DNA from: a virus
Strand: one strand, 5' to 3'
DNA: 40,671 bases
IMG/VR virus record: IMGVR_UViG_3300044679_000108
Location: 1-40,671 of that record
A program made the position numbers and the translations under genes. Shown one piece after another: positions 1 through 40,671 of this stretch. Each line of letters starts with the position of its first letter. Position 1 is the first letter of the stretch. Under the pieces are notes generated by a model that ran no database searches, was not told the DNA's origin, and saw only the letters and a list, made by a program, of their open reading frames with translations.

Positions 1-127
1 ACGGGAACGGGTACGGGTACGGGAACATCCCCGACAGCTTCTTGGGCCGCGGCGCGGGAACCGGCGGCTACCTCCTCGCGCTGCGCGACGGCATCAACGG
101 CGCGACGGTCGCCGATCTCGTCATGCT
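1..127. repeat. Terminal overlap, copy 1 (identical to 40545-40671)
   Basis: Bases 1-127 match 40545-40671 exactly. A 127-base exact end overlap is what a k-mer assembler leaves when it closes a circle, so I read it as an assembly overlap on a circular or circularly permuted molecule. A biological terminal repeat is possible but less likely. Confidence 0.9.
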
Positions 128-188
128 CGCGCTCGGCTCCCCGATGCCGATGCCCGCGCGCCTCGCGAAGCGAGGCGGTGAGTCGTGA
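1..188 (+). CDS. Gly-X dipeptide-repeat protein, C-terminal part (gene crosses the contig junction)
   Basis: This is the end of a gene that begins at GTG 40328; joining base 40671 to base 128 gives one uninterrupted 134-residue frame. The first codons still belong to the GGG-NAC repeat (Gly-Asn/Tyr). They are followed by a unique 53-residue tail starting [18 protein letters not shown] and ending [11 protein letters not shown] at TGA 186-188. The stop overlaps the GTG start of the next gene (GTGA, 185-188), the same coupling used across this operon, which supports the frame. The tail has a short hydrophobic stretch ([12 protein letters not shown]) too weak to call a membrane helix. Function unknown. 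See the entry at 40328 for the repeat itself. Confidence 0.75.
   Translation, partial: GNGYGYGNIPDSFLGRGAGTGGYLLALRDGINGATVADLVMLALGSPMPMPARLAKRGGES
153..177. repeat. 25-bp direct repeat with hairpin, copy 2
   Basis: Bases 153-177 are identical to 40299-40323. The core GCCTCGCGAAGCGAGGC (160-176) is a 7-bp perfect stem with a GAA loop. In both copies it is read in the same frame as PARLAKRG, close to a stop/start overlap. In circular coordinates the copies are 398 bp apart and bracket the Gly-X repeat gene. Confidence 0.9.
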
Positions 189-730
189 CTGCGCCCAAGC
201 CACGCGAGCCCGAGCGATTCGGCCGCACCGAGCTCGAGAACGAGCTCCATCGCCTGCTGACGGTCGCGAGCCTCGCGGAGCTGACCTCTGTCATGGTCGC
301 GCTCGGCGAGCTCGAGATCGATCGCGTGCGGGATGCTCGCGGCCGCCGCATCGTCGTGGACCTCGACGAGCTGCCCGAGCTCATCGCGAGCTCGGTCCGA
401 GCCGTGCTCGCCACGCACGAGTACGCGGTCGCGCACGACCCGGTCCTGCCCGACCCGGCCGAGATGCCGGTCGCGTTGCGCCGGTGCGCCCTGCCCGCGC
501 CCAAGCGGCTGACCATCGCCGAGACGCACCAGCTCCTGGGCGAGCTCGGCCGCAACGTCGCCGGCGTCATCGCGGTGATGAGCGTGCGGCTCGAGCAGCT
601 CGGCCGCATCGAGTTCGTCTGCCCGGTCTGCGGCGACACCTCGCTCGACGAGTTCGATCGCACGCACGGCTTTTGCGCGAAATGCCAGCGCGACACCGGC
701 AAGGCGCCGCGCGCGGGAGGTTCACGGTGA
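185..730 (+). CDS. Small protein with C-terminal Cys4 zinc-ribbon-like motif
   Basis: This 181-residue protein starts at a GTG overlapping the previous stop by 4 bases and ends in a GTGA overlap with the XRE/Fis gene. Near the C-terminus two CxxC pairs (CPVC and CAKC) about 20 residues apart form a zinc-ribbon-like knuckle. The N-terminal part is Leu/Glu-rich and probably helical. I do not recognise a family. Its position inside the rightward operon beside DNA-binding regulators suggests a nucleic-acid or regulatory role, but this is inferred from context and the Cys motif only. Confidence 0.7.
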   Translation: MTAPKPREPERFGRTELENELHRLLTVASLAELTSVMVALGELEIDRVRDARGRRIVVDLDELPELIASSVRAVLATHEYAVAHDPVLPDPAEMPVALRRCALPAPKRLTIAETHQLLGELGRNVAGVIAVMSVRLEQLGRIEFVCPVCGDTSLDEFDRTHGFCAKCQRDTGKAPRAGGSR

Positions 731-1203
731 CGGTGACGGTCGTGAAGGTTCTGCGGCGCGACGGCATCGCCTGGCGAACCGGGCGCGCCCGGCGCGTCGA
801 CTACGACGTCAAGGCCAGCCCCGAGTACCACACGCTGACCCGGTTGATCGGCGAGGCCGTCCGGCGCGCACGCGAGGCGCGCGACGTGCCGGCGGCCGAG
901 CTCGCCGCCGCGATCGGCGTGTCCGAGTCGGTCATCCGGCGCTGGGAGTCCGGCGCGCACGCGCCGACCCTGGCGTCGCTCCTGGCGATCGCCGGCGCGC
1001 TCGACGTCGCGCTCGGGAGCCTCATCCCCGAGCATCGCGGCGTCTCGGTCGTGCGCGAGTCCAAGGAAGAGCGCGACGAGCGCGAGCGCAGCCGGCTCTC
1101 GGCCGCGTTGCGCGACGCCGGCGGTAGCTACACCGCGGCCGCCCGCATCCTGGGCTGTTCGCGCGGCGGCGTGCGGACCAAGATCGCGAGGCTGCTCGCG
1201 TGA
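727..1203 (+). CDS. XRE-family HTH regulator with C-terminal Fis-type HTH
   Basis: This 158-residue protein carries two different DNA-binding folds. Residues ~41-100 look like a Cro/CI (XRE) helix-turn-helix, with the segment AAELAAAIGVSESVIRRWESG being typical of that family (shown here to 20 residues at most: AELAAAIGVSESVIRRWESG). Residues ~123-158 resemble the Fis-type HTH at the end of NtrC-class activators (AAARILGCSRGGVRTKIARL). The GTG start overlaps the upstream stop (GTGA). It is the best candidate for a lysogeny or early-gene regulator, since no separate CI-like repressor is visible. Likely targets are the palindromes at 38973-39156, on circular map upstream of this same operon. 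Target and sign of regulation are inferred. Confidence 0.8.
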   Translation: MTVTVVKVLRRDGIAWRTGRARRVDYDVKASPEYHTLTRLIGEAVRRAREARDVPAAELAAAIGVSESVIRRWESGAHAPTLASLLAIAGALDVALGSLIPEHRGVSVVRESKEERDERERSRLSAALRDAGGSYTAAARILGCSRGGVRTKIARLLA

Positions 1204-1559
1204 CACCGACCGATGCGCAGCGCGAGATGTTCGCGGCGTGGCTCGCCGAAGATGCGCCTGGCCGCGCGCGCATCGCCGAGGTCGCGCGGCGTTTCGGGTT
1301 CGATCCGTGGACGCGGTATCGGCTGATGACGACCGGACAGGTCGCCTGGGTCCGCGGGTTCCTCGAGGGCCATCTCAGCTGCGGGGAGACCAAGTGCAGC
1401 GAGACGTGCGCGCGGCCGGCTGGTCACGACGGCGGCCATGACGAGAACGGCGACGTCACCGTGTACATCTACGCCGAGCACCCCGAGCTCGGCGCCATCT
1501 CGGGCGTCCACGTGTTCGGCATCGCGCCGGCGACGCTCGTGCCCTGGCCAGACTCGTGA
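1200..1559 (+). CDS. Hypothetical protein
   Basis: 119 residues, coupled to both neighbours by GTGA overlaps. The middle holds a Cys/His group, C-GETK-C-SET-C-ARPAGH, which could bind a metal. The C-terminal half is compatible with a small beta fold. The N-terminus (residues 1-45) has a helical, possibly HTH-like pattern (ARIAEVARRFGFDPWTRYRL), but I would not call it a DNA-binding domain on this alone. Function unknown. Confidence 0.65.
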   Translation: MTPTDAQREMFAAWLAEDAPGRARIAEVARRFGFDPWTRYRLMTTGQVAWVRGFLEGHLSCGETKCSETCARPAGHDGGHDENGDVTVYIYAEHPELGAISGVHVFGIAPATLVPWPDS

Positions 1560-1756
1560 ACGCACGTGAGCTCGCCCGCGCCGAGCTGCTCGCTGCACGC
1601 GTGCCGTGTTCGATGTGCGAAGCGCGCGCGGGCAAGCCGTGCGTGACCAAGCATGGCGCCCGCGCCGCGGCGCCGCACCGCGCGCGGGTTCGCGCCGGCG
1701 CGCGGCTGCCGGAGACGTTCTTCGTGCGGCGCTTGCTCAGGAGCTCTATCGAGTAG
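1556..1756 (+). CDS. Small phage zinc-finger-type protein (CxxC...C...H)
   Basis: 66 residues. The central sequence has C-x2-C, then G-K-P-C, then an H followed two residues later by Arg (PHRAR). This arrangement is typical of the short zinc-binding domains common in phage and actinobacterial proteins that are thought to bind DNA. It begins with a GTG overlapping the previous stop and is the last gene before the structured spacer at 1757-2028, so it probably closes this operon. Confidence 0.7.
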   Translation: MNARELARAELLAARVPCSMCEARAGKPCVTKHGARAAAPHRARVRAGARLPETFFVRRLLRSSIE

Positions 1757-1822
1757 CCGCGCGTCGGGGACTGACCGCGCGCGGTCGGTGGAGCTGGGCC
1801 TGAACCAGCGAGAACCAGGAAG

Positions 1823-1863
1823 GGGCTCGCGAGCTCGTCGTTAGCAGCGACGAACGGGAGCCC
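1823..1863 (+). promoter_or_regulatory. Two-part hairpin 1 with TTAGCAG loop
   Basis: Outer stem GGGCTC (1823-1828) pairs with GAGCCC (1858-1863). Inner stem TCGTCG (1835-1840) pairs with CGACGA (1848-1853). The apical loop is TTAGCAG (1841-1847), with a small internal loop between stems. It lies in the non-coding spacer upstream of the initiator-like gene. The next hairpin has the same loop on a different stem. It could be a structured leader, a protein-binding RNA, or a cruciform in DNA. Confidence 0.75.
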
Positions 1864-1873
1864 AGAGACAAAC

Positions 1874-1921
1874 GGCCCGGTCGGGGTACCCCGCTGTTAG
1901 CAGCAGCGGGCCGACCGGGCC
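1874..1921 (+). promoter_or_regulatory. Two-part hairpin 2 with the same TTAGCAG loop
   Basis: Outer stem GGCCCGGTCGG (1874-1884) pairs with 1911-1921. Inner stem CCCGCTG (1890-1896) pairs with CAGCGGG (1904-1910). A five-base bulge GGTAC (1885-1889) lies on one side only, and the loop is TTAGCAG (1897-1903). The 18 bp of perfect pairing is far beyond chance. No T-run follows, so it is not a standard intrinsic terminator. Confidence 0.8.
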
Positions 1922-2028
1922 AACGGGGATCTGCACCTTGGAAGGTAACCCGTGCCTGTGACTGTGCCCGATCATTTCGGGACAGGGCAACAGATCGGGA
2001 AGGGTGCGTCCCCAGGAAGGCCACGTCC

Positions 2029-3399
2029 GTGGACCGATCCCGGGATCTGCTCGAAGACTCGCCGGCGCTCGCCGGCTCCCTCGTTGACAACCGAACCACG
2101 AAGCCACGCGCCAGCGCGCGCGGCGTTCACGACCGGCCGCGGTGGAAGGGCGCCAAGCCTCCGCCGACCGCCGACTGGTCGCGCCAGAAGTGCGAGGCGA
2201 TCCGCGCGAAGCACGCGTGGGTGCGTGCCCAGCTCGGCGGCGCGGTGCCCAAGCCCTATGACTGCACGCTCGGCGACGACTACGCCGTGCGCGTCGCCGA
2301 GGGCAAGCTCCACCCCTACCCGCTCGTGTATCGCGTCTGCGATCGGACCAAGCTCCCGCCGCACGCGAAGTGGCGGCTGACGTCGCGCCACCTCGAGCTG
2401 CTCGCGCACTTCGTGACCGCGCACCTGGTGGTCAAGAGCCAGGGCTTCATCGCGTCGCACGGCGACATGGCCCGGCTCATCGGCTGCTCGGAGCGGACGG
2501 CCGGTACGCGCGTGCGCGAGCTCGTCGCCTGGGGGCTCCTCGATCGGCTTCCGGGCTTCGTGCCCGGCGGCATGGTGACGTGGCGCGCGCGCAGCGTGTA
2601 CCGCGTGACGGCGTTCGCGATCACGCTCTTCGACATCGGTCCGCGCCGCGGCCGCAGGCCGAACCGGGAGCGAAGCGAGGGCGCCGAGTTAGCTGGTAAG
2701 AGTTACCAGGCAGAACTAACCGGCCCTTCGGTCCGGATTAGAAAAGGAGACGACCGACAAGCGGTCGTCGATCGTCAACCCGACGCCGGCGAAGGACCTG
2801 CGCCGATCGCGACAGGCGTCAAGACGCGAACCGAAACGCTGCCGGAAGCTGTTCAGCAGGTGAAGCGGAAGCAGCCCGGCTTCCTCTCGCTGCCGGCGAA
2901 GGCGCAAGCGCAGCTCGACCAGCGAATGACCTCGCTGGTCCACCAGGCCGCCGAGCTCGCGACCCAGGCCGCGGCCGCGGCGAAGCCGCCGCGCCGCGAG
3001 GTGTCGCCGGCGGCGCCGCACGACGTGTCGCGCCTCGAGGCGGCCGACGCGTCCCAGGTCGCCGGCCGCGTCCGGCGCGAGAATGGGCCGGTGTCGCCGG
3101 CCGCGATCCCCTCGGCCGACGAGCTCCGCCGCGAACAGGGCGGCGACGAGGCCGAACGCGCCCGGTTCCGGCAGATCGACGAGCAACGCCGCCGCCGGCG
3201 AGAACGCGAACGCGGAGTACTCGGAGGCGTCTCCGACGACGACCTCGCCGACCAGATCGAAGCCACGCTGAAGTCGCACGCTCGAGGCGGCGAGATCGGC
3301 CCCGTGAACTACAAGCTCCTCGCCCAGCTGCGGCGCGCGAGCGACCTGAAGCCGCCCGGCGGTGGCGGCGGAAACAACGGAACCGGAGGTGCTTCGTGA
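2029..3399 (+). CDS. Replication-initiator-like winged-helix protein
   Basis: 456 residues starting at a GTG about ten bases after AGGAAGG. Residues ~115-175 hold a winged-helix/HTH unit (LTSRHLELLAHFV, then SHGDMARLIGCSERTAGTRV, then ELVAWGLLDRL) like those in phage and plasmid replication initiators. A Gly/Arg-rich linker follows near residue 205, then a long charged, Ala/Arg-rich, probably helical C-terminal half ending in a Gly/Asn tail. The linker-coding DNA (2688-2769) is packed with inverted repeats, a layout reminiscent of the lambda origin inside gene O. No helicase, primase or polymerase gene is visible, so this is the likely recruiter of host replication proteins. The initiator role is inferred from domain and context. 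Confidence 0.6.
   Translation: MDRSRDLLEDSPALAGSLVDNRTTKPRASARGVHDRPRWKGAKPPPTADWSRQKCEAIRAKHAWVRAQLGGAVPKPYDCTLGDDYAVRVAEGKLHPYPLVYRVCDRTKLPPHAKWRLTSRHLELLAHFVTAHLVVKSQGFIASHGDMARLIGCSERTAGTRVRELVAWGLLDRLPGFVPGGMVTWRARSVYRVTAFAITLFDIGPRRGRRPNRERSEGAELAGKSYQAELTGPSVRIRKGDDRQAVVDRQPDAGEGPAPIATGVKTRTETLPEAVQQVKRKQPGFLSLPAKAQAQLDQRMTSLVHQAAELATQAAAAAKPPRREVSPAAPHDVSRLEAADASQVAGRVRRENGPVSPAAIPSADELRREQGGDEAERARFRQIDEQRRRRRERERGVLGGVSDDDLADQIEATLKSHARGGEIGPVNYKLLAQLRRASDLKPPGGGGGNNGTGGAS
2688..2769 (+). other. Inverted-repeat cluster inside the initiator-like gene; candidate origin
   Basis: GTTAG-CTGGTAA (2688-2699) pairs with TTACCAG (2703-2709) and CTAAC (2716-2720), giving 12 bp around a GAG loop. 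A second perfect 8-bp stem, GACGACCG (2749-2756) with CGGTCGTC (2762-2769), encloses ACAAG. The stretch between them is unusually A-rich (ATTAGAAAAGGAG). Location in the linker of the initiator-like gene suggests a replication origin; activity is not demonstrated. Confidence 0.45.
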
Positions 3400-3701
3400 G
3401 GCTCACCCGACGCCAGATCGCGCGGCTCCACGACCAGGCGATCGCCGTGGTCGCCGTCCTCGAGGCCGACGAGTTCGTCGTCGAGCTCTCGGTCCACGTC
3501 CACATGCTCTTGCTCTCGCTCTGCGAGGCGCTCGAGTTCGGGGACCGGAACCTCGTCCGCGAGCTCGCGGAGCTGATGCCGGAGGCCTGGCGCGATCGCC
3601 TGCCCCAGCAGGCCTTGGCGATCGCGAACGCGATCCGTCGCGCCGGCGCGGGTGACCGCGCGCAGGCGATGGCGATGCACGCGATCGGAGGTGCCTCGTG
3701 A
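3396..3701 (+). CDS. Hypothetical helical protein
   Basis: 101 residues, GTGA-coupled to the initiator-like gene and to the next ORF. The sequence is Leu/Ala/Glu-rich, without Gly or Pro over long stretches, and likely all helical. There are no Cys pairs, membrane segments or motifs I recognise. Its tight coupling suggests a role linked to replication or early development, but nothing in the sequence shows it. Confidence 0.6.
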   Translation: MRLTRRQIARLHDQAIAVVAVLEADEFVVELSVHVHMLLLSLCEALEFGDRNLVRELAELMPEAWRDRLPQQALAIANAIRRAGAGDRAQAMAMHAIGGAS

Positions 3702-3883
3702 ACGAGCTCTACGTGCACAGAAACCGAGTCCCCGGCGAGGTCCTGGTCGAGCTCGATGAGCTCGTGCGCGACGACGGCGCGTGGAGTGTCTGGGGCGAGG
3801 AGTTCGACGACGTGCCGCGCCGTCGCAAGCGGTACGCCGACGACCCGACCCGGCCGCGGCGCGCGCAGGACGGTTCGCTGTGA
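3698..3883 (+). CDS. Small acidic/basic hypothetical protein
   Basis: 61 residues in the overlapping series 3396-4484, with GTGA junctions at both ends. The N-terminal half is acidic (ELDELVRDDGAWSVWGEEFDD) and the C-terminal half is Arg-rich (RRRKRYADDPTRPRR). This charge split would suit a nucleic-acid-associated protein, but no family is recognised. The overlaps at both ends are the main reason to accept it. Confidence 0.55.
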   Translation: MNELYVHRNRVPGEVLVELDELVRDDGAWSVWGEEFDDVPRRRKRYADDPTRPRRAQDGSL

Positions 3884-4239
3884 AGAACCCCGACAAGGTC
3901 CTGCGCGAACTCGCGTACCGCGCGCGCTCCGGCATGATCGGCGAGCTGGAGAGCTGCACCTGCAGCTTCCCGCTCGAGCACTTCGAGACCTCGAGCGGAC
4001 ATCACGAGAGGTGCGCCGCGCATGGCTGTCACCTGTCGTCGGTGGAGGTCGCGACGCGTGACCCCGGCAAGCTCCTGGTCGTGCAACCGCAGCCGTTCCC
4101 GATGTGGGCCACGGTCGGCGGCTGGACGGCGCGCTGTCGCACGTGCGGCGCGGAGCCGTTCGCATGTTCGATCTCGCAGCTCGCGGCGCTGATGGTTGTC
4201 GAGCACGGCCACGCGTTGCCCGCGGGAGGTGGCTCGTGA
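3880..4239 (+). CDS. Cys/His-rich hypothetical protein, probable zinc binder
   Basis: 119 residues from the GTG overlapping the previous stop. Two Cys/His groups are visible: CTC followed by HHERCAAHGCH near residues 30-50, and CRTC followed by a further Cys near residues 88-100. These could coordinate one or two metal ions. No enzyme motif is seen. It is GTGA-coupled to the next gene. Confidence 0.6.
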   Translation: MKNPDKVLRELAYRARSGMIGELESCTCSFPLEHFETSSGHHERCAAHGCHLSSVEVATRDPGKLLVVQPQPFPMWATVGGWTARCRTCGAEPFACSISQLAALMVVEHGHALPAGGGS

Positions 4240-4484
4240 CCGCCATCGTGGTCGACGGGCCGATTCGCGCGATCGTCACGCGCATCACGTGGCAGCCGGG
4301 CGACCAGCGCGAGCTCGCGTGCGAGGGCGTGATCGTCGGTCGCGCGATCGTGACGCTACGCGACGGGCTCATCACGGTCAACGCGTTCGTCGTCGCGAGC
4401 AGCGACCCGCGCACGCTGGGCGAGAAGCGGGCGGTGTTCTTCGATCCGATCGACGAGCGGATCGTGGCGCTGCCGATTGGTTAG
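4236..4484 (+). CDS. Small beta-rich hypothetical protein, last gene of the rightward run
   Basis: 82 residues with an alternating Val/Ile pattern (AIVTRITW, GVIVGRAIVTL, LITVNAFVVAS) predicting a small beta fold. It starts in a GTGA overlap. Its TAG stop (4482-4484) overlaps the TAA stop of the leftward lipoprotein gene (4481-4483 on the other strand), so the two transcription units collide tail to tail with no spacer and no obvious terminator hairpin. Confidence 0.6.
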   Translation: MTAIVVDGPIRAIVTRITWQPGDQRELACEGVIVGRAIVTLRDGLITVNAFVVASSDPRTLGEKRAVFFDPIDERIVALPIG

Positions 4485-5158
4485 TGACAGCTGGTCGTGG
4501 TCGTGATGCCGACGGTGTTGGACGTGCAGTGAACCGTCGGCGTCGGGGCCATCGCGGATGACATCGCCGAAGAGAAGGCCCCGAGCGCGGCGCCGATCCG
4601 TTGGCGATGCTCCGCTTCTTCGGCGTAGGCGCGTTCGAACTCGGCCGCGTACCGGTCGTTCGTCTGCTGGAGGGTCCGCTTGTTCCAGTCGACGACGCCT
4701 TCGTTGTGCGAATCGATGGCCCATAGCTCAACTTGCAGCCACTGCCTGCAGTCGAGCGGGTGCGCGGTGCACTTATTGTCGACGGCGGTCCAATCTGCAA
4801 ACACATACCGCTCTCGGAGGCGAGCCATGAACGTTTCGAGCAACCGCTGGTCGCAGGTCGCATCTTCGCGGCCCGCGCACATCCCATCGACGAAGCGCGT
4901 GAGTTCGTTTGGCGCAAGGATCTCGGCCGCCACAAGCCCACAGGGTTGCATGCCCGTTCTCTCGCCGACCTTGAAGGGGCGGGTGCCAGGCGGCTCGGGG
5001 GTTGGGGGCGACTCGGTGCAGTCCGGCGAGATCAGCTTCGCGAGCGCCATGCCGGTGACGCGCGCGAGTTCAGTCTGGCGCGCCGTCTCGATTTCGCCGC
5101 GCCGGCTCGAAAAGCAACCGCTGAGAGTCAGGCCAACGACGAGCGGCGACAGGCGCAT
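4481..5158 (-). CDS. Phage-encoded lipoprotein
   Basis: 225 residues from the ATG at 5158. The N-terminus MRLSPLVVGLTLSGC is a classic lipoprotein signal with lipobox LSGC and Cys15 as the lipidation site. The mature part is periplasmic or outer-membrane anchored, with several Cys (possible disulfides), a helical segment rich in Gln/Arg/Glu near residues 160-190, and a Thr-rich tail between two Cys. I chose this ATG because longer starts would bury the signal peptide. It is the last leftward gene, next to the lysis genes. An envelope role (lysis, superinfection exclusion or host modification) is inferred. Confidence 0.7.
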   Translation of the reverse strand: MRLSPLVVGLTLSGCFSSRRGEIETARQTELARVTGMALAKLISPDCTESPPTPEPPGTRPFKVGERTGMQPCGLVAAEILAPNELTRFVDGMCAGREDATCDQRLLETFMARLRERYVFADWTAVDNKCTAHPLDCRQWLQVELWAIDSHNEGVVDWNKRTLQQTNDRYAAEFERAYAEEAEHRQRIGAALGAFSSAMSSAMAPTPTVHCTSNTVGITTTTSCH

Positions 5159-26287: not shown

Positions 26288-26556
26288 AAGTCACCGCCGT
26301 CGGGCTCGGACGGCTCGGACTTGCCGCGGCGCCGCCCGCGCGGAACCGGCTGGCCGCGCCGCCGCCCGAACGTCTCGGGGTCCTCGAGCGGGTTGAGGTC
26401 GTCGGGCTCCTCATCCTCCGCCGGCAGCGCCGAGCTTGCGATCGGGTCGGGGCCGATCGTGAACTCGAGCTCGCGGAGCTTGACGTGCAGGACGCCGGCG
26501 GCGCGCAGCTTCGCGGCGCGCGCGATGATGAGGTCGATGGCCTCGGCGGGCGTCAT
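26284..26556 (-). CDS. Small protein between terminase and portal genes
   Basis: 90 residues, ATGA-coupled to the terminase gene and GTGA-coupled to the portal gene. An N-terminal helix (PAEAIDLIIARAAKLRAAG) leads to a short strand VKLRELEFTIGP. The rest is disordered and charged with an Arg-rich end. Small ORFs of this kind with an LEFTIGP-like segment recur beside portal genes in many phages; the role is unknown, perhaps packaging. Confidence 0.65.
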   Translation of the reverse strand: MTPAEAIDLIIARAAKLRAAGVLHVKLRELEFTIGPDPIASSALPAEDEEPDDLNPLEDPETFGRRRGQPVPRGRRRGKSEPSEPDGGDL

Positions 26557-28244
26557 AGGTCCCAGCCGCCGCCGTCTGGGCCGTCGTCGTCATCGGGCTC
26601 GAGGTTGCCGAACAAGCTATCCAGATCGTGCCCGTCGTCCTCATCATCACGACGATTAGCCAGGGCGGCGGCCACGAACGGGTCCGCGTGGACGGGCATC
26701 GAGGCCTTCTCGGCGACGACCACGCCCATGTCGAACAAGATCGCGATCGCCCGGCGGCCGTAGACGAGGCAGTCGGTGGAGTGGTTCGCCTGCGCCTTGT
26801 CCTCGCGGAGCATCCCGTACTCGTCGGGCTTCCATTGCAGGATGGTGAGCTGCTGGGCCAGGGCCGAGTCCTTGATGATCTTGAGCCGGCCCTCGACGAA
26901 GTCGCCGTTCGTCAGCTCGATCGCCCCGAACTTGTAGTCGGCCTTCCGCTCGGCTTTCTTGCAACGCAGGCCGTAGACCTTGCCGAGCTCGTCGATGAGC
27001 GCCTGGTCGGCGTCGATCTCCATGCCGTCGGGCCAACCGATGACGCCCAGGACCCCGGCGAGCTGCGCGTGGTCGAGGCCGGGCCCGAGCAGGATCTCGG
27101 CGATCGCCTTGGCATACATCGCGGTCCGCTCGAAGCACCAGACGTGGAAGATGCGGCGCTCGGCGTCGGTCGGCGAAAACGCGAAGACGTTGCACGCGAA
27201 CGGGTCGCGGCTGCCCATGTCCATCGCGATGAAGTAGTGGAACGTGCCGGCGTCCCTGGGCAGCGCGGCGACCGCGGTACGGAGCGCGTCGAGGCCCTCG
27301 AGCGCCCGGTCGCCGAGCGGGTCCCACTGGTTCCACGGCTTGCCGTCGAGGTGAGGCCGGTACCGGAACACCTTATCGGTGTGGTCGGCACTCCACAGGC
27401 CCAGGTGTTCGCGCATCCAGACCGGGTGGTCGTCGGACCAGCCCTTGCGCTCCTTCTGGATGAGCGCCTCCTGCCAGTTGGCGACCAGCGCGGGGTATCG
27501 CCGCTCGGCGTCGGGCAAGGCGACGACGTCGGCGAGTGACCACGCGTGCGAGCTCCACTTGAGCCACCGCGCGAACTCGGGCTTCTCGCGGTCGCGGTAC
27601 GGCCGGTGCTCCGCCGACCCCAGCCGCGTCGCCTCGTAGAACGTGCCGCGCTGGTCGAGCCCGGGCGTGCCGCCGATGACGATAGCGCCGCCGCGCTCAC
27701 CCATACGCGGCGCCGCGATGCGGTCGATGGTGTGCTCGAGCAGGCGCGGGTCCCATGACCCGCACTCGTCGAGCTGGAGCTCATCGAACGGCTGGCCGCG
27801 GAGCTTCTCGGCGTCGCGCTTGTCCTCGATGCCGAACAGCCGGTAGGTCGCCCCCGTCCGCAGGCAGGTCATGCGGAGCTTGGAGTCGAGGAACGAGAAG
27901 TCCTTCGAGACGCCGTAGGCCTCGACCAGGTCCTTGAGCTTGAACCACATCAGCTCCTCGGCCTGGGCGCGCGAGGTCGCGCAGTAGACGACGATGCCGC
28001 GGGGGATGCGCGCGCACTTGATGAGCCCGCGCGCGCGCTTCGTCGTCGTCTTCGCGCCGCCGCGGCCGACGCAGAACGCGACGCGCGTGGACGGGTCGAG
28101 GATCCCGTCGGCCTGGGCCGGGTGCGCGTCCGCGAGGATCCGGCGCGTGAGGTCCGCGGCCCACTGCTCATCCGGCGAGAGCAGGCGCGTCCGGGCCTTG
28201 GCCTTGGTCCACGGCCGCGCCGGCGATGCCTTGGCGCGCGTCAC
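26553..28244 (-). CDS. terL: Terminase large subunit
   Basis: 563 residues from a GTG overlapping the upstream stop (GTGA). It is the DNA-packaging ATPase and nuclease. The ATPase has Walker A GRGGAKTT (60-67), the Walker B motif ELQLDE (155-160), and the coupling-type motif near IVIGGTP. The C-terminal RNase H-like nuclease shows FIAMDMGSRDP (first acidic residue), a middle acidic residue near WPDGMEIDADQ, and a final acidic residue near STDCLVYGRRA. The Asp/Gly-rich C-terminus probably docks to the portal. No frameshift is seen. Confidence 0.9.
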   Translation of the reverse strand: MTRAKASPARPWTKAKARTRLLSPDEQWAADLTRRILADAHPAQADGILDPSTRVAFCVGRGGAKTTTKRARGLIKCARIPRGIVVYCATSRAQAEELMWFKLKDLVEAYGVSKDFSFLDSKLRMTCLRTGATYRLFGIEDKRDAEKLRGQPFDELQLDECGSWDPRLLEHTIDRIAAPRMGERGGAIVIGGTPGLDQRGTFYEATRLGSAEHRPYRDREKPEFARWLKWSSHAWSLADVVALPDAERRYPALVANWQEALIQKERKGWSDDHPVWMREHLGLWSADHTDKVFRYRPHLDGKPWNQWDPLGDRALEGLDALRTAVAALPRDAGTFHYFIAMDMGSRDPFACNVFAFSPTDAERRIFHVWCFERTAMYAKAIAEILLGPGLDHAQLAGVLGVIGWPDGMEIDADQALIDELGKVYGLRCKKAERKADYKFGAIELTNGDFVEGRLKIIKDSALAQQLTILQWKPDEYGMLREDKAQANHSTDCLVYGRRAIAILFDMGVVVAEKASMPVHADPFVAAALANRRDDEDDGHDLDSLFGNLEPDDDDGPDGGGWDL

Positions 28245-28753
28245 GTGACCATTCCGGCGAAGTGCCGCCGGGTCGCGACCGACCACACCGCGCCGGCGTC
28301 GGCGACGACGCCGAGCCGTCGGCGCAGTGTTTCGTAGGTGACCGGGCCGACGGCCACGACGCGAGGTCGCGGCGCGCGGTCGAGCATCGCGAGCAGTGGG
28401 TGCTCGCGCATCGACATGGTCGCGATGCGGTCCTCCGAGTAGTAGCTCTTGAGGACGCCGTCGTACGACGAGGTCTGCAGCGGTCGTGGCGGCTCGCGCC
28501 ACGCCCGCCAGCCGATCGCGCGCCACTCTCTGAGCTGGCTGCGGCGCTGGTCCTCGAGCGGCTCCGGGTCGCCGTCCTCGTCGTCGTAGGCGCCGTAGTC
28601 GGTGACGAGGTACGGCCGCGGGTGGCGGAGCTGTGTCCGGCGTCCGCGGTACGCGAAGTCGGGCCCGAGCTCCGCGAAGATCGCGAACGCCTCGCCCCAG
28701 CGCCGCTCGGCGAGCGCGTCGCGGGCGATGGAGAGCAGGTCCGCCGGGTGCAC
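28241..28753 (-). CDS. Hypothetical protein in the small-terminase position
   Basis: 170 residues from GTG 28753, GTGA-coupled to terL. Nothing resembles a known small terminase HTH, although the N-terminus is helical (PADLLSIARDALAERRWGEA). The middle is acidic and Tyr-rich and the end has beta-like segments (PRPRVVAVGPVTYETL). As the gene directly before terL it occupies the usual small-subunit position, but the sequence supports no function. The start agrees with the shared upstream motif at 28791-28801, which is 37 nt away. Confidence 0.6.
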   Translation of the reverse strand: MHPADLLSIARDALAERRWGEAFAIFAELGPDFAYRGRRTQLRHPRPYLVTDYGAYDDEDGDPEPLEDQRRSQLREWRAIGWRAWREPPRPLQTSSYDGVLKSYYSEDRIATMSMREHPLLAMLDRAPRPRVVAVGPVTYETLRRRLGVVADAGAVWSVATRRHFAGMVT

Positions 28754-28790
28754 CGCCGACGAGCGTGCGGCGGGTCAGCGTGCGGGCTGG

Positions 28791-28801
28791 CGAATAGGCC
28801 C
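28791..28801 (-). promoter_or_regulatory. GGGCCTATTCG motif 37 nt before the first packaging gene
   Basis: Second copy of the 11-mer described at 23464-23474, at the identical distance from a start codon. It lies in the 128-base gap 28754-28881, the first real gap after a long series of overlapping genes, so a late promoter is plausible here. Confidence 0.45.
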
Positions 28802-28881
28802 GGCTAGCCACGCTCCGTTCCCACGGCCTAGGCTGCGGTGATCCACCTCGGACCGGGCGAGGCCGAGGCCCTGGGGAACCG

Positions 28882-33429: not shown

Positions 33430-33896
33430 CGCATCGCCTCCAGCATCGCGAGGCTGACGCCGCCGGCGCGCAGCTTCGCGAGGCCTGCGCGCTCGATCTG
33501 ATTCACGCGCGTCGCGGTGAGGCCCAGGATGCCGCCCACCTCTTCGAGTGTGATGCCGCCGCGTGCGGCGACGTCGAGCGTGCAGCTTGCGGCCATCGGG
33601 CGCAGGGTCGTCTCGCCCTGGATGCCCATCGCCGGATTGCCGGCGCGGCTCGCCTGCTCGAGCAGCCACAGATGATGGCTGCACGAGACGAACGGGCATG
33701 GGCGCGGCATGTCCACGCAGTCGGCGCGGGTCGGCGGCACGCCGGCGCGGAACTCCCAGGACGCCGCCAGCGCGATCGGCTCGAGCACCGGCAGGCGACG
33801 GCCGCGGCCGCCGACCTGCTGCTCGACGATATGGTCGTGCTGTGCGCCAGGTGCAATGACCAGTGGCCGGGGCTTCCTGGGCTTGCGCCGGCTCAC
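33426..33896 (-). CDS. Sigma-region-4-like Cys/His protein, paralogue B
   Basis: 156 residues from a GTG overlapping the ParB-like stop. It has the same order as paralogue A: C60, C67, PFVSC72 and HH74-75 before LW, then SCTLDVA (from 104), then a clear sigma-70 region-4-like HTH at ~115-143 (GITLEEVGGILGLTATRVNQ). An N-terminal basic tail (SRRKPRKPRP) may add DNA contacts. It lacks region 2, so it cannot be a complete sigma factor. A role in switching host RNA polymerase to phage genes is an inference. Confidence 0.65.
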   Translation of the reverse strand: MSRRKPRKPRPLVIAPGAQHDHIVEQQVGGRGRRLPVLEPIALAASWEFRAGVPPTRADCVDMPRPCPFVSCSHHLWLLEQASRAGNPAMGIQGETTLRPMAASCTLDVAARGGITLEEVGGILGLTATRVNQIERAGLAKLRAGGVSLAMLEAMR

Positions 33897-34669
33897 GCCG
33901 CGCTCCTCGTCGAGGCCTGCTGGACGAGCTGCACGAGGTAGACGCGGCCGGCGAATCCGACGTGCACGCCCTTGGCGTCGAGTCGCGCGCACGTGCCGCC
34001 GATGCGCGTTATGGCGTGCTCGATCGCATTGAGGAGCTGCATGGTCGGCGTGCGGGATGTTCCGTCGCCCTGCTGGTCGAGTAGTGCGCGCACCGCCTTG
34101 CCGGCGATCGGGCCGGTCGGCTGCTCGAGCTTGGCGATCGCCGCGCGCTGCTCCTCCGCGGGCAGCCTCACGAGCTCCTCGGCGGCGCCGAGCGCGAGCT
34201 CGCCGCGGTCGATGGCGGCGACCACCTCGGGCACGGCCTGGTCGAGCACGTGGCGCGCGCGGGACACGCTGCGCTCGCCGACGTCGGCGCGCTTGGCGAC
34301 GTCAGCCTGTCGAATCCCCGCCGTTTGGCGGCCTTTCGCGGGCCGGCCGGGCACGAGGGCCGCCATGCGCGCGGCGGCGAGAGCGCGCTGCGATGGGTTG
34401 AGATTGCGACGCGGGCCGTTCTGCGACCAAACGAACGCGAGGATCTTCGCGGGTCCGCCCCTGAATACGCGGAATCGCGGCTTGACGCCGGCGATGATGC
34501 AGGCCTTCGCGCGATTGCGGCCGTCGAGGATGAGCTCGCCCTCATCCGTCCAGATCGGCTCGTTGAGGCCGTTCGCGAGGATGTCGGCAGCGAGCTCGGC
34601 GAGCTCGTCGCCGACCATCAGCGGGAACACGTCAGCCGCCGGGTGCGTATCGTGGTCGCCGATCTTCAT
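33893..34669 (-). CDS. ParB/Srx-domain DNA-binding protein
   Basis: 258 residues, ATGA overlap at the start. Residues ~10-70 match the ParB N-terminal domain (ELAADILANGLNEPIWTDEG, then LILDGRNRAKACIIAG, where DGRNR replaces the usual GERR box). An HTH follows near residue 115-140 (ADVAKRADVGERSVSRARHV). Phage ParB-like proteins can be partition factors, nucleases or transcription regulators. No ParA is encoded, so simple partitioning of a plasmid prophage is unlikely, and the integrase argues against it. Confidence 0.7.
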   Translation of the reverse strand: MKIGDHDTHPAADVFPLMVGDELAELAADILANGLNEPIWTDEGELILDGRNRAKACIIAGVKPRFRVFRGGPAKILAFVWSQNGPRRNLNPSQRALAAARMAALVPGRPAKGRQTAGIRQADVAKRADVGERSVSRARHVLDQAVPEVVAAIDRGELALGAAEELVRLPAEEQRAAIAKLEQPTGPIAGKAVRALLDQQGDGTSRTPTMQLLNAIEHAITRIGGTCARLDAKGVHVGFAGRVYLVQLVQQASTRSAA

Positions 34670-38026: not shown

Positions 38027-38686
38027 CTACGTTGCGGCGGTGGCGGGGGTGGCAACGCCGTTGCGAGCCGACTTCAACGCGCGGAGGGTCTTCGGGGCGG
38101 CCTCGGCGGCGGCTTCCTCGCGGAGTCGGCGATGGAGGACGCTGTCCGGGATACCGAGCTCACGCTCGATCTCGCGCAACGATGCGCCGGCGGCGCGTAG
38201 TGCGTGCACCTTCTTCATTGGGACGCGCCGGCGTGGGCGGCCCAGCGAGCGAGCTGCGCTGGCGCGCGCCATGCCGAGCGTGTGACGTGCCTTGCGGATG
38301 ACATTCTCGAATGAAGCGAACGCCTGCACGAGCTCGAGCAGCGGGCCGGCCGCCGTCGCGTTCGTGGTGTCGAGCGGCGGTTCGCGTGCGCTGACGAAGG
38401 CGACGTCGTTCTCGCGCAGGACCTCGAGTACTACAACGAGCTCGTGCAGCGTCCCGAACATCCGGTCCATGCTGCTAACGACGAGCACGTCGTAGCTGCG
38501 CGCGCGCGCGCCGGCGAGAACTCGCAGGATGCCAGGGCGTCGTCGGACATCACGCTCGCGGTTCGTCGGATCGCCGAACGTCGTCACGAGCGTCCAGCCT
38601 CGGCTCTTCAGGAGCTCGATCGCATCGCCCTGCTCCATGTAGCCGGCATCCCCCGGCGATCCCTTCAGGTACAGCGCGGCCCTCAT
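38027..38686 (-). CDS. Serine recombinase (resolvase/invertase type) with altered active site
   Basis: 219 residues from ATG 38686; ATG 38695 is an alternative. The resolvase order is clear: N-terminal AALYLKGS with candidate nucleophile Ser10, RRRPG (50-52) in the place of the mobile Arg, YDVLVVSSMDRMFG (65-78), a long helix with FENVIRKARHTLG, and a C-terminal HTH (VHALRAAGASLREIERELGI). Compared with gamma-delta resolvase, Arg8 is Lys and Arg71 is Gly, so catalysis may be weak or lost. A second recombinase besides the integrase may control inversion, excision or gene expression. Confidence 0.75.
   Translation of the reverse strand: MRAALYLKGSPGDAGYMEQGDAIELLKSRGWTLVTTFGDPTNRERDVRRRPGILRVLAGARARSYDVLVVSSMDRMFGTLHELVVVLEVLRENDVAFVSAREPPLDTTNATAAGPLLELVQAFASFENVIRKARHTLGMARASAARSLGRPRRRVPMKKVHALRAAGASLREIERELGIPDSVLHRRLREEAAAEAAPKTLRALKSARNGVATPATAAT
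38299..38301 (-). other. No separate feature in 37853-38026 beyond the motif at 37884
   Basis: Note only: the 174-base spacer downstream of the recombinase gene was read on both strands. Apart from the AACCCTTCAA motif no hairpin, ORF or T-run stands out. This entry marks the check and carries no claim. Confidence 0.1.

Positions 38687-39770: not shown

Positions 39771-40671
<901 letters not shown>

Follow-up and report, generated by a model that had tools for sequence, protein, structure and literature searches.

Genome and locus

The window analysed here is the whole of an IMG/VR virus record, 40,671 bases long, with a G+C content of 70%. It carries a direct terminal repeat of 127 bp (1–127 is identical to 40545–40671), a sign that the genome is probably complete and closes as a circle. 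A hexanucleotide-type array (GGGAAC/GGGTAC/GGGGAC) at about 40336–40560 precedes the terminal repeat and runs on into ORF 3–188. The virus encodes a large terminase, and its portal-like and adaptor proteins resemble those of phage SU10, the portal match lying below the curated cut-off. The phage is temperate, as it also encodes a tyrosine integrase and a resolvase. In the terminase ORF (26553–28811, − strand), similarity to most relatives starts near residue 190; the listed ORF is probably overlong at its N-terminus. The product of 33893–34669 (− strand) matches a ParB-like partition protein family (phrog_4715, E 2e-14), here in an integrase-bearing phage.

Ten ORFs on the + strand, from 3 to 4484, overlap by four bases throughout. 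The sole break in this series is the gap at 1757–2028, and the operon has the same orientation upstream and downstream of it. The features of the locus are as follows.

1556–1756, + strand: gene directly before the leader, encoding a zinc-binding phage protein of 66 aa (PF24623, E 1.7e-10)
1757–2028, + strand: untranslated gap of 272 nt, the presumed leader of the downstream operon
1823–1863, + strand: hairpin H1, with a 6-bp outer stem, a 1×1 mismatch, 2 bp, a 3×1 internal loop and a 6-bp inner stem
1841–1847, + strand: loop of H1, TTAGCAG, closed by a G-C pair (1840/1848)
1864–1873, + strand: single-stranded linker between H1 and H2, AGAGACAAAC, 10 nt
1874–1921, + strand: hairpin H2, with an 11-bp outer stem, a 5-nt bulge on the 5′ side and a 7-bp inner stem
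1897–1903, + strand: loop of H2, TTAGCAG, closed by a G-C pair (1896/1904)
1925–2013, + strand: H3, a third folded element made of a single long imperfect hairpin (z −2.96)
2014–2042, + strand: predicted small hairpin that pairs the ribosome site GGAAGG (2015–2020) and the GTG start (2029)
2029–3399, + strand: first gene after the leader, a 456-aa ORF with coding composition and a weak helix-turn-helix match

The matches of ORF 2029–3399 are all sub-threshold (HTH_36, E 0.06–0.2; phrog_8102, 'replication initiation protein', E 0.16). These helix-turn-helix matches hint faintly at the 'initiator-like' gene that the sequence-only reading had placed behind the hairpins. The predicted structure of its product has a mean pLDDT of 45.6, which is too low for use.

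As RNA, the gap folds with a z-score of −5.15, and none of 200 shuffles reached equal stability. In the small hairpin over the ribosome site the pairing probability is at least 0.9 at most positions, and its stability is similar to that of shuffles (z −0.69). The motif GGAAGG occurs four times within 205 nt of the leader (1818–1823, 1940–1945, 1998–2003 and 2015–2020). None of 300 shuffles reached this clustering, which was counted post hoc and includes one copy that is the ribosome site.

Two hairpins with one loop

The two adjacent hairpins that carry the same loop on different stems were confirmed as stable folds at 1823–1863 and 1874–1921. Both have the build described in the earlier reading: an outer stem, a mismatch or bulge, an inner stem and a loop closed by G-C. 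Loop plus closing pair read GTTAGCAGC in H1 and in H2, and the stems are unlike. The pairing probability is at least 0.97 for the stem pairs checked, also within a 550-nt context. Compared with shuffles, the fold z-scores are −4.4 for H1 and −5.5 for H2. The hairpins also fold with DNA parameters. They had been thought to fill the spacer, but they cover 99 of its 272 nt. The description of the loop as a heptaloop holds for Watson–Crick stem pairing and not for the minimum-energy RNA form, as a U·G pair (probability 0.98) and a U-A pair (0.57) in the + strand RNA can narrow it to the triloop AGC.

The twin hairpins are a real, non-random feature. Within the window, H1 and H2 are the sole pair with identical loops (5–8 nt, stems of at least 5 bp, no more than 150 nt apart, either strand). 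Pairs with an identical 7-nt loop and 6-bp stems were absent from 20,000 dinucleotide shuffles of the gap and from 300 shuffles of the window. In the window itself, GTTAGCAGC is found three times against an expectation of 0.07. Both 5′ arms also contain perfect 10-bp palindromes, a feature that was dropped since the background rate of such palindromes is 4.8 per kb.

Three of the six inner pairs differ between H1 and H2 on both sides, with pairing intact in all six. As many compensating changes were seen in 66 of 500 shuffles, in a comparison that consists of two sequences only. Because of this frequency, and because no homologous leader was found, selection on the structure, which the sequence-only reading had taken from the differing stems, is not demonstrable.

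Search for relatives

We found no homologue of the leader in IMG/VR, in phage or plasmid records, or in some 300–400 Actinomycetota genomes, and no relative of ORF 2029–3399 in viral contigs, phages, plasmids and 296 Actinomycetota genomes. This phylum was chosen from one distant relative of the terminase and may not be that of the host. Searches with the upstream genes 185–730 and 1200–1559 gave no relatives, and gene 727–1203 gave a single short match. When IMG/VR was scanned for two copies of GTTAGCAGC, the matches listed were due to chance or repetitive; with GGAAG added upstream there were 21 matches, with paired stems in none. The pattern of the pair was matched once in 396 Actinomycetota genomes, by an A+T-rich stretch judged to be chance.

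Distant relatives were reached via the terminase alone (L122–L133), and these are mostly short fragments. None of them has ORF 2029–3399, and the virus records among them are without the nonamer. A covariance model of the inner hairpins (R1) gave its two founders as the only significant matches in the loci searched. All searches for relatives may exclude records very near the window, and close relatives could exist unseen.

Comparison with known systems

A search of Rfam 15 gave no matches at the gathering threshold, the sub-threshold matches being miRNA hairpins only. No tRNA gene was found. A mimic of an anticodon arm, with a loop of seven nucleotides, U at position 2 and AGC in the middle, was considered and not retained. 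The boxB hairpins of the lambda nut site are comparable in having a conserved loop that a phage protein recognizes. They differ in that each boxB is one short hairpin, with a GNRA-like pentaloop, and lies beside boxA.

A further likeness is offered by the targets of ANTAR proteins (eutP, nasF and amiE type), in which adjacent leader hairpins also share loop residues, differ in their stems and are joined by a short linker. An ANTAR-target RNA has two stem-loops with a linker of 2–25 nt (PMC8164766) and hexaloops with A1 and G4 (PMC8164766; PMC3369931). The two stem-loops and the linker are present here, and the 10 nt between H1 and H2 also fall within the 5–12 nt of the eut twin-hairpin sites (PMC3369931). 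The hexaloop with A1 and G4 is not: the loop is UUAGCAG (7 nt), or AGC if narrowed. The stems of H1 and H2 are also much longer than those of ANTAR targets. A search of the phage with PF03861 gave no ANTAR domain; the host could supply such a protein.

The put sites of HK022 (putL and putR) are likewise two adjacent bulged stem-loops in a phage transcript. In the part of PMC9378689 on which we draw, put is a V-shaped pair of stem-loops of about 70 nt that binds the zinc domain of RNA polymerase. Its stems meet at a bifurcation point, whereas H1 and H2 span 99 nt with a 10-nt linker, and identical loops are not described there as a feature of put.

The seqA and seqC sites of P4 resemble H1 and H2 as two target sequences within the untranslated leader of replication genes. 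Their control needs a CI-type RNA from the same leader that is complementary to both sites (PMC4825925). Here, no RNA complementary to H1 and H2 was found between or near the sites or elsewhere in the leader, which also speaks against the wider proposal that the loops pair with an antisense RNA, by analogy with P4 immunity and the control of plasmid copy number. Such an RNA would come from the opposite strand at this site or from another part of the phage. This proposal draws on UUAG in the loop, which is a YUNR U-turn motif as seen in the recognition loops of antisense systems (PMC4485353), and on the + strand at 38471–38486, where 16 nt of H1, among them the loop, and 9 nt of H2 have their sole exact complement outside the leader. 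However, this stretch sits antisense within a recombinase gene, and promoter-like sites were found on neither strand in 1–5000. With no plausible partner, we consider antisense kissing improbable. The stretch, in the resolvase gene, repeats 16 nt from the 5′ arm and loop of H1 in inverted orientation (GCTCGTCGTTAGCAGC); as a partner it was judged to be chance, 26 inverted matches of 16 nt being listed in the window.

Termination and replication origin as rival explanations

Tandem termination is the strongest rival explanation, albeit a somewhat unlikely one. H1 and H2 would be tandem intrinsic terminators, or an insulator, for the genes in 1–1756; ORF 2029–3399 would be transcribed from a promoter past H2, and the shared loop would be incidental. 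The two hairpins are strong and neighbouring, and H1 begins 67 nt past a stop codon; in one study, 98% of the correctly identified terminator sites lay at most 80 nt from a stop (PMC8355165). The same study describes hairpins less than 15 bases apart as forming clusters, mostly of two, reports such clusters near stops as terminators without poly-U, and argues that poly-U is unnecessary (PMC8355165). Nevertheless, no U-tract follows H1 or H2 on the + strand, their tails being AGAGACAAAC and AACGGGGATC, respectively, where a classical terminator has a T-rich tract. A terminator scan selected neither hairpin. An identical heptaloop is not required for termination, and the operon in which the hairpins sit extends past them on the same strand.

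The palindromes could also be DNA elements of a replication origin, extruded or single-stranded, and bound by the product of ORF 2029–3399. The hairpins lie next to a possible initiator gene, they fold as DNA, and the nonamer GTTAGCAGC forms a direct repeat. But there are only two copies of the nonamer in the pair and no iteron array, and ORF 2029–3399 is itself no more than a putative initiator gene. The least G+C-rich stretch nearby is 2700–2779 (56%), inside ORF 2029–3399, which fits an origin better and makes an origin at the hairpins less likely. Such a role, one of those offered by the sequence-only reading, is accordingly less favoured, and we regard it as quite improbable. Inverted repeats (GTTAG-CTGGTAA...TTACCAG-...-CTAAC) lie at 2688–2720 within the same gene; 2688–2720 and 2700–2779 together are a candidate replication origin inside the gene.

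A possible bipartite site in a leader RNA

The reading that we favour, tentatively and at a little under even chances, is that H1 and H2 are a bipartite docking site in a structured leader RNA that controls the replication-type genes behind it. A double-stranded DNA operator would keep its arms and vary its spacer. In H1 and H2 the loop is kept and the stems are unlike. This opposite pattern suggests that the loop is what is recognized, in single-stranded folded nucleic acid and not in double-stranded DNA arms. Loop recognition, together with the place of the hairpins in the gap of a same-strand operon, points to a bipartite docking site within a leader RNA. The strand preference is consistent with this, as folding is more favourable on the + strand than on the − strand for H1 (−25.1 versus −21.7 kcal mol−1) and for H2 (−39.1 versus −37.0 kcal mol−1).

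In the proposed mechanism, the second half of the rightward operon would have the transcribed gap as its structured 5′ leader RNA. Both identical GUUAGCAGC loops would be read by a factor acting in trans, for which a dimeric RNA-binding protein is the likeliest candidate; the stems would hold the loops side by side, their exact sequence being of little importance. Binding of the factor could alter transcription past the leader, by attenuation or antitermination, or could alter access to the masked ribosome site of ORF 2029–3399. The outcome would be expression of the replication-type genes at the right stage. From the position of its gene, the zinc-binding protein of 1556–1756 is, as a guess, one candidate for the factor.

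Several observations weigh against the docking site. No known RNA-binding regulator was recognized in the phage. The stems are G+C-rich, and a structural switch is not obvious with such stems. The hairpin that would mask the start codon is, as noted above, of a stability similar to that of shuffles. The paired binding site or leader element put forward in the sequence-only reading thus fits the anatomy, that is the strand, the sole untranslated gap and the same loop on different stems, while the regulatory role of the twin hairpins is plausible but unproven.

A more specific proposal, which we think unlikely, is that H1 and H2 represent a novel class of leader RNA in phages: twin U-turn loops of seven bases would be presented to a factor of the phage's own, perhaps the zinc protein of the gene just before the leader, and would act as a two-point switch of the replication operon. 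If the hairpins do form a loop-reading switch, regulatory RNAs with twin hairpins would gain a member outside all the known families tested. The early genes of the temperate phage that carries it have no relatives in the collections searched, and the switch would offer a small system for testing bipartite recognition of RNA.
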